Source: Betaproteobacteria bacterium
GTDB lineage: Bacteria > Pseudomonadota > Gammaproteobacteria > Burkholderiales > Burkholderiaceae
Length of the DNA stretch: 33,524 nucleotides
Assembly (NCBI GenBank): GCA_947378095.1
Contig: CANCIL010000014.1
Location: 1-33,524 of the forward strand
Reading direction: 5' to 3'
Of this stretch, positions 4,832 to 14,707 are shown in pieces (positions within the stretch are counted from its first letter, which is position 1; each line of letters opens with the position of its first letter). Below the pieces are notes generated by a model. It worked only from the letters and a program-made list of their open reading frames with translations. It ran no database searches and was not told the DNA's origin. A program made the position numbers and the translations under genes.

Positions 4832-5866
4832 ATGACTGCCACTAAAAACCGAGATCTGTTTCTGGATATTGCTAAGGGTTTAGCAATTATCTTAGTAGTA
4901 GTGGGTCACGTCATTCAAGGTAGCGCACAAAACTTTGATGATCTTCTCTGGTTTAGAGTGATCTACTCATTCCATATGCCTCTATTTGTATTCCTATCAG
5001 GGGCAGTTGCTGCTATTGCATTTAAATCAGATAGGATCGAAGAAGGGGTAGAGGCCGCTCTTCAACAGGCCAAAACGAGAATTGCTAAAGCAACTGTTCG
5101 TTTATTGTTGCCGTTTATCGCTTGGTGCCTTATTAACCAATTAATTTATCACCATAGCGATAGCGTGATGGCAGCTTTAATTCTGGCATTTAGGCGTCCT
5201 GATACTGCACTCTGGTTTCTCCTAGCTATTTTTTACTGCGTTGTACTGGCAGAACTTTTTAATATTTTTTTCTCTGTGATTTATAGGCTCTCGACAAGAT
5301 TCGGCCTTAAGGAAGCAGTCAAATGGATTGCTGATGGCCGCGTCCAAATTGCCTTGATGATATTTATTTGGTGGTCTATTCGAGAGCATACGCCTCGTGG
5401 CGCTGGCCTAAGCCTGATCAGGTCATACTTTATCTATTACGTCCTGGGGATTGGTTTTTATAAGTATGTATATCTAAAATTATCTACATGGAAGTATCTA
5501 CCAGCTTGGATTATTTTTATTGGACTCATTCCATTTTGGTCAAGAACTGCCATAGACAATATGGATGCATCAATATTATTGCCTAGTGTGCTTATTTATT
5601 TTTATGCTGGAATTGTTGCGCTAAGTGGCTCATTTTTAATTTTGAGCATTGCAAAATGGATTGCACAAACTCACATCAAAGTATTAAAAAGTTTTCTAGT
5701 GCTATGCGGACAGCTTTCCTTAGGAATTTATGCAATTCACTATTTCTTTTTAGCATACCCTCCAAAGGTGCTTACTCCCTTGCTTGTGAGCATAGTGCTA
5801 GCCTATGGCATCAATAGGATCCCAGTTGTAAGAACGGTCTTACTGGGTGAAAAGGGTTGGTTATAA
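4832..5866 (+). CDS. Acyltransferase family 3 membrane protein
   Basis: RDLFLDIAKGLAIILVVVGHVIQG; SFHMPLFVFLSGA; multiple TM segments. Confidence 0.85.
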   Translation: MTATKNRDLFLDIAKGLAIILVVVGHVIQGSAQNFDDLLWFRVIYSFHMPLFVFLSGAVAAIAFKSDRIEEGVEAALQQAKTRIAKATVRLLLPFIAWCLINQLIYHHSDSVMAALILAFRRPDTALWFLLAIFYCVVLAELFNIFFSVIYRLSTRFGLKEAVKWIADGRVQIALMIFIWWSIREHTPRGAGLSLIRSYFIYYVLGIGFYKYVYLKLSTWKYLPAWIIFIGLIPFWSRTAIDNMDASILLPSVLIYFYAGIVALSGSFLILSIAKWIAQTHIKVLKSFLVLCGQLSLGIYAIHYFFLAYPPKVLTPLLVSIVLAYGINRIPVVRTVLLGEKGWL

Positions 5867-5917
5867 TAGATGTTTATAAAAATTAGCTAAAAGCAAGCCT
5901 ATATTAAAGGAGCTGTC

Positions 5918-6799
5918 TTGAAGAAATTAACAATTTTATTTTTCCCAGTCATCCTTGTAGCTTGTGCTGGTGGCAGCACCTCCACAAGCACTACTTCTTC
6001 CTCTGCGGCCACCACCCCTTTTACGAGCTGGTCTAGCACTACGGTTGGAACCCCCGTTAGCTTTTCTAGTGGCCCATCATCTACTTTGGCTGTTGATGGT
6101 ACTTCAGTCCAAGGAGCTTCAGATGCAGCTGCTACCCTGACATTAAATTCAAGCAATAATTTTTCTGCTATCAATGCATCTAATACAGCAGGCTCTGTTT
6201 CTTTTAGTACTGCAAATGGCGATACTTTGCAGAGTGGATTTAATGGTAATGCAACAGTTGCTCTCAATAAATCTCAAACCACTGTGGGTGCATTTGCCAA
6301 TCCTTCAGCCTATGGATTTGAATACCAAACTTTTGGCGCATGGGGTGCATATGGTAATGCCACTACCCCTGCTTACGCTGTAAGCGTGGGAAACCCTTCT
6401 CCTGCTAGTGCAATTCCTGCGGTTGGCTCCTTAACATTTACTGGAGGCTCTGCTGGATATTATGTTGATCCTTCCAAATTTGGTTATGTAACTAATGCGG
6501 TTATGGTGGCCGTAGTCACTTTTGATAATCGTACAGTTGCGTTTAATACAACTAATACAACCATAGCTGGCGGTCCTGGTGCCTCATTACTTTCAGCGCC
6601 AGCATTAAATATGACCGGCAATCTAAGCTATGCTGCTGGGACAAATGCAATGACAGGAACAGCTACCACTACCAATGGAATGTCAGGCAATATGAATGGT
6701 AAGTTTTATGGCCCAGGCTTAAATGAAATCGGCGGTACTTATGCAGTGACGGGCTCAGGTATTGGATCAATGGTTGGTGGTTTTGGAGGCAAGCGATAA
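5918..6799 (+). CDS. Surface lipoprotein with TbpB-like/Slam-dependent C-terminal barrel (SLP1)
   Basis: TTG start preceded by aaaggag; lipobox LVAC; Ser/Thr-rich linker; C-terminal GKFYGPGLNEIGGTYAVTGSG...GGFGGKR; adjacent to Slam-like gene. Confidence 0.8.
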   Translation: MKKLTILFFPVILVACAGGSTSTSTTSSSAATTPFTSWSSTTVGTPVSFSSGPSSTLAVDGTSVQGASDAAATLTLNSSNNFSAINASNTAGSVSFSTANGDTLQSGFNGNATVALNKSQTTVGAFANPSAYGFEYQTFGAWGAYGNATTPAYAVSVGNPSPASAIPAVGSLTFTGGSAGYYVDPSKFGYVTNAVMVAVVTFDNRTVAFNTTNTTIAGGPGASLLSAPALNMTGNLSYAAGTNAMTGTATTTNGMSGNMNGKFYGPGLNEIGGTYAVTGSGIGSMVGGFGGKR

Positions 6800-6825
6800 A
6801 CCTCCCTTCTTTAGCTCTCTTACTG

Positions 6826-6850
6826 AGGGTGCTACTTGTAGCACCCTTTT
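6826..6850 (+). terminator. Terminator-like hairpin overlapping the start of the Slam-like gene
   Basis: agggtgcta-cttg-tagcaccct, 9-bp perfect stem, followed by tttttcttta. Confidence 0.75.
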
Positions 6851-8001
6851 TCTTTATCGGGTCTCAGTCTTATGCTGCAGTTGCTCGTGAGCCTGCGCTT
6901 GTTCAAAAAGAGTTTGAAGAAGCTATAGGCATGATGGGCTACAGCCCCGAAGCTGCAGCAGCAAAATTTGGAGAGCTTTATCAAGAGACTAAGGCGCCTC
7001 GTATTCAACTTGAGTGGGCCAGAAGCTTATACCTAGCCGGAAGATTGGCTGAGGCAAAAGAACAATTTATTGATGTAATTAACAAAGAGATTCCGATTAC
7101 GGTCAGAGATAAGATCGAATGGTATTTGAGTGAGATTCAAAAAAGGCAATCAGCGAAAGTCTATATTGGCCTTTATCAGGACTCTAATCCCGGATATATC
7201 ACAAGTGCCAGAACGGTCAGTATTTTTGGGCAAACACTTTCATATCAGCCGGCAGTAAATACCAACTCAGAAACAGGCCTTGGGGTCGGGGTAGAGGCTG
7301 AGCGTGAACTGGTTCCTCAGTCTGGTTATTTTGCGCAAGCCAATATAAACACCGCGACCTATCAAACTAGTGCATTTAACAAGCAAGATATGGATGTCAG
7401 TTTTGTAAAACGATGGCAAGACTATAACTATAAAGATTTACGAGTAGGCTATGAACGTATGCTCTACGGTGGGTCTACATTGTTTGATTATGCATACGTA
7501 TCGTCTAAATGGGTCTTTAATTTACCCAGTCAAGACTACTATGGATTTTTTATCAAGGGCGGCCCCTTAACTTATCCAAACTACACGTATTTGTCAGGCT
7601 CTCAAACCCAAGCTAACGTTTTTTATAATCACAATATTACAAGAGACTTAACTCTGTACTTAGAGGCGGGCGGAGATAAAACCTTTGCTAGCCAGCCTGC
7701 TTATAGCTCAAACGGCTTTTATGGAACTTTAGGCACACAAGTGGCTTGGGACTCCACGAATATTCAAGCTAACCTCAAGGCTTCGATATTGCAGCGCAAC
7801 TATATGGATTCTGATCCATTGTGGGGTGAGACTAGGCGAGATTCTGGACAGCTATATTGGCTCTCTATCACCAAGAGGGACCTCTATATCCTAGGGTTGC
7901 GACCAAGTATTGATATTACCTATCAAACCAATAACTCCAATATTCCATTTTTTGCTTATAACAAGCTCTTTGGCGGCATCTTCTTTAAGAATGTGTATTA
8001 G
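6829..8001 (+). CDS. Slam (surface lipoprotein assembly modifier, DUF560)-like outer-membrane protein; start codon uncertain (GTG 6829, or further upstream in frame)
   Basis: Signal peptide, short helical TPR-like N-domain (KEFEEAIGMMGYSPEAAAAKFGELYQETKAPRIQLEWARSLYLAGRLAEAKEQF), then a beta-barrel domain ending RRDSGQLYWLSITKRDLYILGLRPSIDITYQTNNSNIPFFAYNKLFGGIFFKNVY, typical Slam C-terminus. Confidence 0.8.
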   Translation: MLLVAPFFFIGSQSYAAVAREPALVQKEFEEAIGMMGYSPEAAAAKFGELYQETKAPRIQLEWARSLYLAGRLAEAKEQFIDVINKEIPITVRDKIEWYLSEIQKRQSAKVYIGLYQDSNPGYITSARTVSIFGQTLSYQPAVNTNSETGLGVGVEAERELVPQSGYFAQANINTATYQTSAFNKQDMDVSFVKRWQDYNYKDLRVGYERMLYGGSTLFDYAYVSSKWVFNLPSQDYYGFFIKGGPLTYPNYTYLSGSQTQANVFYNHNITRDLTLYLEAGGDKTFASQPAYSSNGFYGTLGTQVAWDSTNIQANLKASILQRNYMDSDPLWGETRRDSGQLYWLSITKRDLYILGLRPSIDITYQTNNSNIPFFAYNKLFGGIFFKNVY

Positions 8002-8103
8002 TAATGGCCATACTTTACGAGTGCGATTATTAGGTCTATAACTAAGCTTGGAAATTTTCTAATTTGGTTGTGCAGGGGTAAATAATATAAGAGGGAGGGA
8101 ACT

Positions 8104-8982
8104 ATGAAAAAGGTGGCTCTAGTATTTTTGCCCATTTTAATTAGTGCTTGTGCTGGAGGTGGCAACAGCTCCTCTACTAGCTCAGCTTCTACAAACGCGT
8201 TTACTTCTTGGTCTGCCACTATTGCCGCTAACGCCCCAGTAAGCTTTACTAGCGGATCAACTTCAACTATGGCGCTTGATGGAACATTCGCTCAAACTGA
8301 TGCTGATGGAAGCGCCACTCTTGCGCTAGGTGGCAATGGAATTTTTTCATCTATCAGTGCTTCAACGCCTACAAATTCCGTAGTGTTTAATGCTGCAAAT
8401 GGCGATAGCTTACAAAGTGGTTTTTTTCAAACCTCTACGATTGCATTAAATAAGTCTGAAACAACTATTGGTGTTTTTACAAATCCTACCTATTATGGAT
8501 TTGAGTATCAGACCTATGGAGCGTGGGGATCGTATGGAAATGCAACAACTTCAGCGAATGCAATCAGCGTTGGAAGTGCTACTCCAGTCACTGGAATTCC
8601 GGCTACCGGTTCTTATGTCTTTAATGGTGGAGCATCAGGTTATTACACCGATCCAACTAAATTTTCTTATGTAACCAATGCCAATATGACTGCTACAGTT
8701 TCTTTTGATGCTCGAACCGTAAGTTTTAGTACGACTGGAACGAATGTCAGTGGCTCACCATCTGGCTCTGTTATTGCAGCGCCAGACTTAAATCTTGCAG
8801 GTACCTTATCTATTGCTGCTGGGGCCAATAAGATTTCTGGTGTGGTTACTACTGTTGGGGGAATGACTGGAAATGCAAACGGTAAGTTTTATGGTCCTGC
8901 CGCCAATGAGGTGGGTGGAACTTATGCGGTATCTGGATCTAATCTAGGTTCCTTTGTTGGTGGATTTGGGGGCAAGCGATAA
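8104..8982 (+). CDS. Surface lipoprotein with TbpB-like/Slam-dependent barrel (SLP2), paralog of 5918..6799
   Basis: RBS gggaggga; lipobox ISAC; co-linear with SLP1 (YGFEYQTYGAWGSYGNATT; GKFYGPAANEVGGTYAVSGS; FVGGFGGKR). Confidence 0.82.
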   Translation: MKKVALVFLPILISACAGGGNSSSTSSASTNAFTSWSATIAANAPVSFTSGSTSTMALDGTFAQTDADGSATLALGGNGIFSSISASTPTNSVVFNAANGDSLQSGFFQTSTIALNKSETTIGVFTNPTYYGFEYQTYGAWGSYGNATTSANAISVGSATPVTGIPATGSYVFNGGASGYYTDPTKFSYVTNANMTATVSFDARTVSFSTTGTNVSGSPSGSVIAAPDLNLAGTLSIAAGANKISGVVTTVGGMTGNANGKFYGPAANEVGGTYAVSGSNLGSFVGGFGGKR

Positions 8983-9008
8983 TTACTCGATTTTTCATAA
9001 TCTTCTCT

Positions 9009-9040
9009 TGGGTGCTTAAATTAGCACCCATTTTCTTTTT
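9009..9040 (+). terminator. Terminator-like hairpin overlapping the start of the downstream barrel gene
   Basis: tgggtgct-taaatt-agcaccca then ttttcttttt. Confidence 0.65.
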
Positions 9041-9497
9041 CATGCATCCAGCTTGTGCTCAAGAACCCACTGCATGGCTGCAAATCATTGAGCCGCAAAG
9101 TAAAAATGAGTTATGGGTCAATCCTGGGATGTATTCCTATCACTTTCAGAAAGATCAAAATCTGAATAACAATAACTGGGGAGTTGGGCTAGAGTATCGA
9201 TTTAATACAGTTGCATCAGTTACCCTGGGAAACTACAAAAATAGTGATAACGGCCATTCTAGTTATGCAGGGGTCTATTACCAACCCATTGCAATAGGCC
9301 CAGTAAAGATCGGCGTCGTGGCAGGAGGTTTTAATGGGTATCAGTCAACTAATAATGGGGGTTGGTTTCCGGCGGTCTTGCCTGCTATCACATTAGAAGA
9401 GGGCAGATTGGGTGCCAATATCTTTTTTATTCCTACGGTGGGTGATAAGGTACATGGCGCCATTTCGCTGCAGCTTAAATTAAAGCTTTATGATTAG
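9012..9497 (+). CDS. Uncharacterised small exported, probable outer-membrane beta-barrel protein; start uncertain
   Basis: Signal peptide ending PACA|QEP; alternating amphipathic strands with Gly/Tyr-rich turns (WGVGLEYRFN, SYAGVYYQP, GPVKIGVVAGGFNGY). Confidence 0.6.
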   Translation: MLKLAPIFFFMHPACAQEPTAWLQIIEPQSKNELWVNPGMYSYHFQKDQNLNNNNWGVGLEYRFNTVASVTLGNYKNSDNGHSSYAGVYYQPIAIGPVKIGVVAGGFNGYQSTNNGGWFPAVLPAITLEEGRLGANIFFIPTVGDKVHGAISLQLKLKLYD

Positions 9498-9596
9498 CGT
9501 CTTTGAAGCCAATAAAGACAACATTAGGGTAGGCCCAAAAGTTTAATTTCGTATTCATTAAAGATGCGGTATTAAATTTTCACTTATTGCATAAAT

Positions 9597-10685
9597 ATGA
9601 ATATAGGTATCAGCGATAAATTGATGGGTAATGAGAATAGATTTAGATCTTTAGATTTTTTAAGGGGCTTAGCTATTCTGGGTGTAATAGCTATCCATGT
9701 CTCATTAGGGTTGCCTACTCAAATTGAATTGATTGATAAGACCTTATCCTTTGGCTTATATGGTGTTCAGCTCTTTTACTTAATTAGTGCAATTACGATG
9801 TGCTTGATGTGGGAGCAGAGGGCATATGAAAAGTCGCCAACTAAAAATTTTTATATCAGAAGATTTTTGCGTATAGCCCCACTATTTTGGCTGGCAATAC
9901 CAGTCTATCTTTCTGTGAATGGATTCGAACCCTCATATTGGGCGCCTGAAGGTATAGGAGTAACCCAGATCGTATTGACAATATTGTTTCTGCAGGGGTT
10001 TTGGCCTGATGCGATTAATAGTGTTGTCCCTGGGGGATGGTCAATCGCTGTCGAGATGACTTTTTATTTAATTTTTCCAGTATTGATACGGACTTTTCAA
10101 AATAGAGCTAATTTATATCTGTATAGCGCAATCTTTGTATGGCTTTTAAATAACTTATTTTTCAAAGGCTGGATCACTGAGTTTTTTGCTGATCATTATC
10201 CTGCTATGGGGGCGTTAATTGTTAAGGATTACCTTAGCCTTTATTTTTTGAATCAGGCGCCTATTTTCTTAATTGGTTGTTGGATTTATTTCTCTGGAGC
10301 CAATAGTTTTTTTAAAGGCAATTTAGTCATTTTTGTAGCCTGGATCGGTTTAGCAGCCTTGCTAAAATTTGCTTTAGGAATAAATGGGCTGGGATTTTTG
10401 TTGGTTTATTTAAGCCTTTCCGTTTTAGTCGTCTTTTGCATTACCAAAAAAGTACATTTCAAGCCGATTGAGGCGCTTGGAAAAAATTCATACGCAATGT
10501 ACCTAATCCATTTTTTGGTGATTAGTTTTGTATATAGACTGCTACCTGAAAAAATGGGTCTAATGATGTGGTTGACAGCAATGTGCCTTACCGTATTGAT
10601 TAGCTATGTGCTCTCTAAAATAATTTATTTCTTGATAGAAAGCAGGATCCAACTCCTGGCCAATAGACTTACAGTAGGTAGATAA
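9597..10685 (+). CDS. Acyltransferase family 3 (OafA/YrhL-type)
   Basis: RFRSLDFLRGLAILGVIAIHVS; FYIRRFLRIAPLFWLAIPVYL; GGWSIAVEMTFYLIFPVLI. Confidence 0.9.
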   Translation: MNIGISDKLMGNENRFRSLDFLRGLAILGVIAIHVSLGLPTQIELIDKTLSFGLYGVQLFYLISAITMCLMWEQRAYEKSPTKNFYIRRFLRIAPLFWLAIPVYLSVNGFEPSYWAPEGIGVTQIVLTILFLQGFWPDAINSVVPGGWSIAVEMTFYLIFPVLIRTFQNRANLYLYSAIFVWLLNNLFFKGWITEFFADHYPAMGALIVKDYLSLYFLNQAPIFLIGCWIYFSGANSFFKGNLVIFVAWIGLAALLKFALGINGLGFLLVYLSLSVLVVFCITKKVHFKPIEALGKNSYAMYLIHFLVISFVYRLLPEKMGLMMWLTAMCLTVLISYVLSKIIYFLIESRIQLLANRLTVGR

Positions 10686-10711: not shown

Positions 10712-11875
10712 TTAATTTTTAATCTTCTCAGATATAAATTGACCCACAAATACATTTCCTTCGTTATTAAGATGGCCGTCGTTTAGCCAGTAGAGTTCCT
10801 CAGACCGCTTTTTCGACTCATAGAAGGGCTCTGTAAGATCGTAGTTACGGACCTTCTTTGAGCTTAAGTAATCTCGTAAGCCTCCATAGAAAATGGTATT
10901 TGCATAGTGTAGTTTTGGGGGAATCAAGATTAATATTAATTCGTAGTTCTGTTTCTTGGCATCATTAATCCATAAATCCAAAGCCTCACGATTTTTCTTG
11001 CTAACTTCAGCGCTTTCATACCCCTTATCCTTGCCATAATTGACTCCTTCGCTGATTCCGTAAATTGTGGCAAGTTCTTTTGCTTTCGTTTGTTTGATAC
11101 CGATCTTTAGCAAGTTCCATGTCAGAGAATGGCCATCTAACCAAGAATCAAGACGAGTCTTCCAGTCTTGCGATTTTGGATTTATTCCAGCCAGGATATC
11201 CTCTTTGATTTGATTCATATCGCGTGGAAGCAGTTGAAATTGCACGGCATCAAATTTATAGGTGTCTACCTCATAGCCCTCTATAACAGTGGTATGTGGG
11301 TAAGCATAATCATTGGCGACATCATTTTCATAAAAGGAAAGAATGACTCTTTTTGGGGGGTGGCCAATAAGTTTTATGGTGCGCTGAAATTTTTCAAACT
11401 GATGTCTTTGTCCTGAATGAATGATGCCGCACTTGACAGTAAATCGCCCGCTTATCTTTTCATAAGTGGAGGGAATATTCTGTTCATAGTTTCCATAACC
11501 CCAAGCAAATGAATCTCCCGCGAAGTAATCATAATTTTTAGCAGATTTAATCTCTGCTAGGGTATGGCGATCAAAGCATCCAATCTCATTTGAAAAGATG
11601 GGGAAACTTCCATCAGCCATATTGAAGGTGATAGGGGCGACATTCTTTTGAATATCAAAACCCATCACAGGGTCCGCTACGTTATATCCACGCGGAAAGT
11701 AGTGAACGGCAGCATTTAACTTTTCTTGAAAGCGGTTCTTTTTGTATGCTGGCAAGAAAGTAATGCCTTCGCTCGGTGAGCTTACATATCCAACAAAATC
11801 AACTACAGCTAGGGTGCCGATAGTCGCCAAGGTAATTGGTAAACAGTTTCTAAAAAGACTTTTAAGAGAGGGCAT
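10712..11875 (-). CDS. SGNH/GDSL-hydrolase-like protein with N-terminal membrane anchor
   Basis: Block I-like DYFAGDSFAWGYG, ENDVANDY, terminal WLNDGHLNNEGN (D-x-H block). Confidence 0.7.
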   Translation of the reverse strand: MPSLKSLFRNCLPITLATIGTLAVVDFVGYVSSPSEGITFLPAYKKNRFQEKLNAAVHYFPRGYNVADPVMGFDIQKNVAPITFNMADGSFPIFSNEIGCFDRHTLAEIKSAKNYDYFAGDSFAWGYGNYEQNIPSTYEKISGRFTVKCGIIHSGQRHQFEKFQRTIKLIGHPPKRVILSFYENDVANDYAYPHTTVIEGYEVDTYKFDAVQFQLLPRDMNQIKEDILAGINPKSQDWKTRLDSWLDGHSLTWNLLKIGIKQTKAKELATIYGISEGVNYGKDKGYESAEVSKKNREALDLWINDAKKQNYELILILIPPKLHYANTIFYGGLRDYLSSKKVRNYDLTEPFYESKKRSEELYWLNDGHLNNEGNVFVGQFISEKIKN

Positions 11876-12111: not shown

Positions 12112-12957
12112 ATGAAAAATATCGCACTTCTATTCTTCCCTTTGCTTTTGGTGGCCTGCGCTAGCGGAGGTAGTGGAGGTGGGGGCTCAGTATCCACCAC
12201 ACCCTTCACAACATTTTCAGCTATTGCGCCTAATACGACAGTGCAGTCATCTGGAGGGTCGACCCAATTTACTTATTCCCCTGCTGCAGTTAGCTCTAAT
12301 GGACAAAGTACCTCTGGAGCTACATTAACTACAAAATATGATGCGAGTACAAATCCAACTGCTATTTCTATACAGTCAGCTCAGGGCGCCTCCGTCTCAA
12401 TCAATACAGCAATTGGAGATACTATTACAACCACTGGCGGCATAGTACTAGGCACTAGCAAGGACGCTAATACAAATTTACTGGTATCAACGGGATTTGA
12501 GTACCAGTCTTTTGGTGTGTGGGCTGCTGGGGCTGGCTCGGGAACTGCGGGCGCTTTTGCTGTAGGTAATCCAACTGCTGCAGCTAACATTCCTACTTCG
12601 GGCTCGGCTTCGTTTACAGGAAAATCTTTTGGGGTTTACGGATCGAGTGCTGGTGTTTATTAAACAGTCTCTGATATGACGGCAACCGCTAATTTTACTA
12701 ATAGATCTATTGTGTTTACAACTTCCAATACTATTAACAACGATACAAAAGTGGCCGCATCCGGACTCAACCTTATTGGTTCATTTGCTTACAACTCTGG
12801 ATCAGCAATATTTTCTGGTGGAGTCGTTTCATCAGGGGGAATGTCAGGAGTTGGCACTGGTCAGTTTTATGGCCCAGCTGCAAATGAAATTGGAGGCACT
12901 ATTTCCTTGTCTGGCAATGGTGGAGTATTCACGGGGGCTTTTGGCGGCAAACGTTGA
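12112..12957 (+). pseudogene. Third TbpB-like/Slam-type surface lipoprotein paralog (SLP3), interrupted by in-frame TAA at 12661-12663
   Basis: MKNIALLFFPLLLVACASGG lipobox; ORFs 12103..12663 and 12676..12957 are in the same frame; second half carries GQFYGPAANEIGGTISLSGNG...GAFGGKR. Confidence 0.82.
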
Positions 12958-13510: not shown

Positions 13511-14707
13511 TCACTTTTTAAGGTCGTTACTTATGGATTCAGATACTAATTTATAGCCCTTAGGAGATAAATGGTAGCCTTCCGGTGCGTAAGCTGCTGA
13601 CCCAGCTTCATGCAAGATATTTGTGAAATCTATGTAAGTGATATTTTTGGAGTGCGAATAATCTCCTAGCATTTTTGCATAGTTAGCAGATCGTGCATCA
13701 GGCCTCCAAAAATTATTATTGGGAATGTATCCAATTATTGGGGTGCATCCGTTTTTAAGGCACTCAGCAGCAAGAAGATCAATTGCAAGCGTATTGGAGG
13801 ATGGGAGCTTGCTTTTCCAACCTCCTACTTTTAAATAATTGTTAATGGTTCTTCTAATGGTTGGTAGTGAAAAATATTTTAGGGATTTTTCAAACAGGCT
13901 AATTTGCGAAAATATTTTAATAAATTCTTGTGGAGAATTATCAGTTAACAAGGTTTCAATAAGATAGTCTGACTTGGCATAAAAATCCAGTGTATTTTTA
14001 GATAAATGCAGCTCACCATTTTTACTTTCAAAATATTTTTTATTTTGCACAAAATAGTAGTCATAAATTAAAGAGTCAGCATCGTCCTCATTATCATTTG
14101 CATAAAAGATAGTAACAACATACTTTGGCTTTAGAAGTGGAATAAATATTTTTTCAAGAGCGGCATAATGTATAGCGTGGTTTCCATAAGTCGCCAGATT
14201 TAGAAGTTTCAATTTACTTCCCAATTGAAATGCTATTGAATCCTTTTCATCTACACAAGCTCCATGAGCAAATGAGTCGCCAATCAAAATTAAATCAATT
14301 TTCTCATCCCAGAGATTGTCCTGATTTCTAAATCCAAAACGATCTGTTTCGTATTTAATTAACCCATATCCCTCATTGCAAAAGTACAATTTACTATAGG
14401 GTTGTGGTGCTAATGGGGCCGCATCCATTTCTTTAGCGAGTTTTTTTAAGGGTAGGTATGTATCAATAGTTTCAGGAAAAAATAGAGCTTTATATCCTTG
14501 TTGCACAGCTACTTTTTTTTGAGGAACATCTTCTTTTAGGATTCTTTCAGCTTCAATTTTTTTAGCCTCACTCAGACTATTCGCAGCCTCTAATGAAGCT
14601 ATTTTTTGTAAATAGTAGTCGCCAACTATTAAACATGGATAGCCGACAAGAAAAACAATGAATATCAAAGAAAAATATAAATAAATTTTTTTTATTCTTT
14701 TGGTCAT
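13511..14707 (-). CDS. SGNH-hydrolase-like protein with N-terminal membrane anchor
   Basis: LILIGDSFAHGACVDEKDSIAFQL; FYANDNEDDA; YAPEGYHLSPKGYKLVSE. Confidence 0.7.
   Translation of the reverse strand: MTKRIKKIYLYFSLIFIVFLVGYPCLIVGDYYLQKIASLEAANSLSEAKKIEAERILKEDVPQKKVAVQQGYKALFFPETIDTYLPLKKLAKEMDAAPLAPQPYSKLYFCNEGYGLIKYETDRFGFRNQDNLWDEKIDLILIGDSFAHGACVDEKDSIAFQLGSKLKLLNLATYGNHAIHYAALEKIFIPLLKPKYVVTIFYANDNEDDADSLIYDYYFVQNKKYFESKNGELHLSKNTLDFYAKSDYLIETLLTDNSPQEFIKIFSQISLFEKSLKYFSLPTIRRTINNYLKVGGWKSKLPSSNTLAIDLLAAECLKNGCTPIIGYIPNNNFWRPDARSANYAKMLGDYSHSKNITYIDFTNILHEAGSAAYAPEGYHLSPKGYKLVSESISNDLKK

Follow-up and report, generated by a model that had tools for sequence, protein, structure and literature searches.

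The window analysed here is a whole contig of 33,524 nucleotides from a freshwater bacterium of the genus Polynucleobacter, the genome of which measures 1.94 Mb and is 77% complete. Its + strand carries, in order, the genes for a predicted TbpB-like surface lipoprotein (cargo 1, 5918..6799), a predicted Slam/T11SS outer-membrane translocon (6829..8001), a paralogous predicted TbpB-like surface lipoprotein (cargo 2, 8104..8982), a predicted PagP-like 8-stranded outer-membrane barrel (9012..9497) and a third, interrupted lipoprotein paralog (cargo 3, 12112..12957), the type XI unit thus reaching at least to position 12957. A sequence-only reading had proposed a cargo1-Slam-cargo2 unit in a freshwater betaproteobacterium. 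The coordinates it gave for the three genes and their lengths of 293, 390 and 292 residues were all correct on re-reading, and the unit is supported by Pfam matches above cut-off to SlipAM in the middle gene and to TbpB_B_D in both neighbours. The families and their order stood, but the three-gene picture was incomplete, as it had overlooked the PagP-like gene, a further cargo and the terminator hairpins described below. Scans for Rfam families and for tRNAs returned no matches in the window.

The product of 6829..8001 (390 residues, listed start GTG) has a hydrophobic leader followed by a short helical N-domain and a predicted DUF560 barrel. It matches Pfam SlipAM with 34.4 bits (cut-off 22) over residues 145-379, as do all eight members of the Slam alignment, so that its earlier description as Slam (DUF560)-like was borne out and, judged by sequence, it is a Slam/DUF560 protein. 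Regarding the signal peptide and short TPR-like domain also claimed for it, the hydrophobic leader and the short helical domain were recovered while the TPR match is weak: the N-domain, of about 85 residues, matched TPR_19 in four of the eight alignment members (best E 0.0039) and TPR_Slam in only two (best E 0.0015), the latter model retrieving mostly TPRs in general when used as a class-wide probe. Searches of PDB sequences with the Slam protein and with its profile gave no meaningful match. This gene is the sole SlipAM gene of the 77% complete genome and is adjoined on both sides by genes for TbpB-type barrel lipoproteins. Among the nearest named relatives of the protein is that of Polynucleobacter sp. 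AP-Latsch-80-C2 (94% identity).

Cargo 1 (TTG start, 293 residues) and cargo 2 (ATG start, 292 residues) are 57% identical over their full length. Their lipoboxes, read from the sequence, are LVAC followed by AGG in cargo 1 and ISAC followed by AGG in cargo 2, and both proteins possess Ser/Thr-rich linkers and a common GKFYGPxxNE(I/V)GGTYAV(T/S)GS...GGFGGKR ending, which confirms their description as paralogous lipoproteins. The presence of an 8-stranded TbpB-like barrel at the C-terminus had been set beforehand as a test. Pfam TbpB_B_D (cut-off 26 bits) scored 28.1 bits in cargo 1 (residues 166-293) and 31.6 bits in cargo 2 (residues 165-292), the match covering all 126 model positions and reaching the last residue in both. 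A cargo profile built from 12 relatives matched TbpB C-lobe structures over positions 103-294 (E 3e-7). Cargo 2 was modelled with AlphaFold (pLDDT 82.8, pTM 0.81); the model was confident save for residues 1-32, which comprise the signal peptide and linker, and its best Foldseek match was the TbpB C-lobe 5kkx (E 1.4e-8), followed by NHBA, fHbp and HphA. Each cargo is thus predicted to be one lobe, a handle plus an 8-stranded barrel. The two cargos scored 24.6 and 28.2 bits against the NCBIfam slam_lipo equivalog NF041636, below its curated cut-off of 80. Cargo 2 resembles the HphA (hemophilin) hemophores with a Slam partner in being a single-lobe protein of about 250 residues, and V. harveyi HphA (8gm3) is among its Foldseek matches. 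Unlike HphA, it contains no histidine, and so provides no evidence of heme binding, and no heme genes lie nearby.

Cargo 3 is 41% identical to its paralog and has a single in-frame TAA at 12661-12663, being otherwise open to the GGKR end and above the TbpB_B_D cut-off across the stop. Its counterpart in a related genome (L037:2472-3320) is intact and encodes 282 residues, and the TAA may reflect either decay or a sequence error in an assembled metagenome.

The AlphaFold model of the protein encoded by 9012..9497 is an 8-stranded barrel (pLDDT 86.7) whose best PDB match in a fold search was PagP, the lipid A palmitoyltransferase (3gp6, E 1.1e-5, TM 0.56-0.58). A search of PDB sequences with the profile of this family gave only chance matches to ribosomal L23, and against Pfam PagP the window protein reached 12.7 bits, below the cut-off of 24, one distant member reaching E 8.2e-8. 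The catalytic residues of PagP are His, Asp and Ser. Among 25 relatives of the PagP-like protein, His44 and Ser78 are invariant and Asn77 is nearly so; we take Asn77 to occupy the position of the active-site Asp, which, unlike in PagP, is Asn throughout the close family, the exception being L042. The gene adjoins the Slam unit in six of the eight cassettes of the genus. The family occurs in 47 of 186 genomes of the genus and in 179 of 399 of the family Burkholderiaceae, where it is thus common and not by itself a Slam component; a Slam-specific accessory was accordingly rejected, and we infer only that the protein may have an accessory role in the cassette.

Two genes of the acyltransferase-3 family and two SGNH/GDSL-like genes are interleaved with the cassette (4832-5866, 9597-10685, 10712-11875 and 13511-14707), as if genes for modification of surface polysaccharide or lipid used the same variable site. 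No TonB-dependent receptor gene was found in the window, the two receptors of the genome being located on other contigs (C10 and C25); the adjacent receptor that characterises a bipartite uptake system of the TbpB/HpuA type is therefore absent here. Slam1 and Slam2 act with TbpB, HpuA and fHbp in Neisseria, and Slam-TbpB pairs are known from Moraxella and Haemophilus (PMC5449769, PMC9090332); clusters with several lipoproteins form a small subset (nine) of the Slam clusters in PMC5449769. As in these systems, a DUF560 barrel adjoins lipoproteins with TbpB-type 8-stranded barrels, and the fold of cargo 2 matches TbpB, NHBA and fHbp. The Polynucleobacter cassette differs from them in its free-living freshwater host, its three paralogous single-lobe cargos, the lack of a nearby TonB receptor gene, a shorter N-domain and a predicted terminator within the signal-peptide codons of Slam.

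Among the 186 genomes of the genus surveyed, SlipAM was detected in 14 and TbpB_B_D in nine. The cassette-type Slam is present in eight, and the survey of related neighbourhoods that the sequence-only reading had suggested found a cargo in every one of these; a single further genome has a cargo alone (Fisher p 3e-13, a value that ignores relatedness). A complete cargo gene is adjacent to Slam in seven of the eight. In the remaining and most distant cassette, the adjacent cargo (L042:8084-9003) is split over two overlapping frames, possibly by a frameshift, both Slam and the PagP-like gene being intact there. The locus is thus a patchy cassette in Polynucleobacter, in which cargo and cassette Slam co-occur almost perfectly. 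The window and four relatives (L036, L037, L038 and L039) have flanking genes in common as far as the stretches reach, a Dph6-like ATPase, an acyltransferase or a pilin on one side and MoaC or an M48 peptidase on the other; the cassettes of L040, L041 and L042 have other neighbours. One 99% complete genome, G118, encodes two tandem cargo lipoproteins (L035:7623-9463) and no detectable Slam of the cassette type. A second kind of SlipAM protein, divergent and of 450-640 residues, occurs in seven genomes (L043-L049, for example L047:1-15001) without a TbpB-like cargo, in a conserved cluster with genes for LuxR, HlyD, an ABC exporter, a FecR-domain protein and a giant cadherin-like protein, which poses the question of whether a DUF560 barrel is linked there to an adhesin secreted by a type I system.

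Both junctions of the window at which a cargo gene precedes a membrane-protein gene carry a predicted intrinsic terminator on the + strand. At the junction of cargo 1 and Slam, a 10-bp hairpin followed by a U-run lies at 6825..6855 (RNA fold -15.6 kcal/mol, z -3.3), and at that of cargo 2 and the PagP-like gene an 8-bp hairpin followed by a U-run lies at 9009..9040 (z -5.4). The sequence GGGTGCT-N6-AGCACCC followed by a U-run is common to the two, each of which forms the stable GC-rich hairpin with a U-run directly after it that is typical of intrinsic terminators. The hairpins lie within the signal-peptide codons of the downstream genes and encode the hydrophobic core of the leader (RVLLVAPFFF in Slam and VLKLAPIFFF in the PagP-like protein), so that without the hairpin codons neither protein would have a leader. 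That two unrelated proteins, Slam and the PagP-like barrel, have this motif in their genes is most readily accounted for at the level of the RNA. The start of Slam is ambiguous: the listed GTG at 6829 falls within the stem and yields a leader without positive charge, and the ATG of L036 and L038 aligns with a CTG at window positions 6823-6825. The possibility that an in-frame ATA, which overlaps the stop codon of the cargo gene, provides a coupled start was dropped because it does not hold in L039 and L041. Likewise discarded was a general terminator type of the form GGGTGC..GCACCC, no further copy being present in the window and no U-tailed copy in 420 kb of a relative.

A strict detector found such a hairpin at all eight junctions of the close family at which a membrane-protein gene comes after a cargo gene, starting 18-27 nt beyond the cargo stop, and in each case the eight bases behind the stem include seven T or more. 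Over 420 kb scanned in a complete relative, by comparison, none of 173 co-directional gene pairs had a hairpin inside the downstream ORF and one had a hairpin anywhere; only the strict version discriminates, as looser thresholds gave 4 and 10 of 173 inside the downstream ORF. In L038, L039 and L041, in which Slam precedes the PagP-like gene, no hairpin was detected and the leader of the PagP-like protein is an ordinary one, nor was a hairpin detected at the cargo-to-cargo junction of L035. The placement of the hairpin therefore tracks the cargo and not the downstream gene. Counting against the terminator reading, the hairpin is also missing from the distant L042 junction and from the high-GC loci L155, L156 and L161.

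The aligned hairpins have 98.4% of stem cells paired, with double changes in three of the eight pairs, which indicates that the stem is preserved through compensatory change. In three Slam orthologues, 9/10, 9/10 and 10/10 hairpin codons were identical, compared to approximately 56% elsewhere (Fisher p 0.003-0.04), synonymous change being thus almost absent from the hairpin; as the eight hairpins are partly orthologous and their sequences related, no p value given here is exact and independence is overstated.

In other genera of the class, a terminator-like hairpin was found at six of eight mid-GC cargo-to-Slam junctions compared to 5 of 61 other junctions (p 9e-5), in a comparison made with a looser detector on eight junctions chosen by eye and with cargos recognised via the C-terminal motif or position. 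These hairpins lie 15-27 nt after the cargo stop, between the genes or near the next start, and high-GC loci lack the T-run. A cargo-terminator-Slam layout beyond Polynucleobacter is thus a lead rather than a result. In L164, from a genome with uptake repeats of the neisserial type, the cargo and Slam genes are separated precisely by an inverted repeat resembling the neisserial uptake sequence, GCCGTCTGAAA..TTTCAGACGGC (junction after position 6389); this hairpin was not counted by the detector.

Taken together, these observations make it probable that the locus is a type XI (Slam) cassette in which a terminator follows the cargo and the lipoprotein outnumbers the translocon; that the cargo reaches the surface, that transcripts end at the hairpin in the cell and that the amounts differ is inferred. 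The cargo lipoproteins would be lipidated via their lipobox and carried to the outer membrane, where a single Slam barrel would recognise the TbpB-type C-terminal barrel and move the cargo to the outer face, each cargo then displaying one handle-plus-barrel lobe at the surface. The intrinsic terminator placed after a cargo gene and before a membrane-protein gene would end most transcripts, and rare read-through would yield little Slam or PagP-like protein, so that many lipoproteins would pass through few Slams. In the Polynucleobacter lineage, the terminator would have been compressed into the codons that specify the leader of the gene that follows. As the hairpin overlaps the start region of Slam, we propose that ribosome initiation could oppose termination. 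A wider claim, that type XI operons in general are built as cargo-terminator-Slam, which fixes the cargo-to-exporter ratio, and that ribosomes in Polynucleobacter melt the terminator in a translation-tuned feedback, is possible, if rather doubtful. In Xenorhabdus, NilB and NilC have separate promoters (PMC9100927), and such control of the ratio need not be universal.

The same precedent would favour an ordinary T11SS cassette in which the hairpins are plain ends of the cargo transcripts, Slam and the PagP-like gene are expressed from their own promoters inside the 3' ends of the cargo genes, and the overlap results from compaction, as small genomes would allow, and sets no ratio. We consider this unlikely, since a scan for sigma-70-like sites, the only type sought, found no promoter-like site on the + strand from 5014 to 9597, and since the overlap is absent from the other tight gene pairs (0/173). 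That the hairpin controls translation by masking the beginning of the message for Slam or the PagP-like protein, or protects the 3' end of the cargo mRNA, in either case without ending transcription, is quite unlikely: the stem is stable, and in L036 and L038 the start codon touches it, but the U-run found at all eight junctions is expected for termination and unnecessary for masking or protection. It is very improbable that the DUF560 protein serves another substrate and that the lipoproteins are periplasmic or exported otherwise, even though the SlipAM proteins of the type I secretion/giant-adhesin cluster have no cargo and G118 retains two cargos without a detectable Slam, because Slam adjoins TbpB_B_D cargos with near-perfect co-occurrence and the C-terminal barrel is known to be shared by T11SS cargos (PMC12282271).

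For the preferred reading, a cassette whose terminator limits expression of the exporter, a parallel is found in the ABC-importer operons of cellulolytic Clostridia, in which internal stem-loops set the ratio of products by partial termination, as established by Northern blots and reporters (PMC9045158). In both systems the stem-loop lies after the gene for an extracytoplasmic binding protein and before that of a membrane translocator. The clostridial stem-loops, however, are located between genes and are experimentally shown, whereas those of Polynucleobacter are predicted and lie within the opening codons of the downstream gene. The word "terminator" is absent from the main text of the few Slam/T11SS papers searched for it.

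The locus thus belongs to the known type XI (Slam) kind, and the overlap of its predicted terminator with a signal peptide is unusual and well conserved. The experimentally verified type XI systems all fall in an animal-associated cluster (PMC12282271). The cassette described here occurs, patchily, in a free-living freshwater genus, and its close relative AP-Latsch-80-C2 (L003) has a cultured-type genome record. One and the same sequence is apparently under selection both as a signal peptide and as a terminator, and the hairpins offer a concrete starting point for testing by what means a Slam operon might control the amount of cargo relative to translocon.
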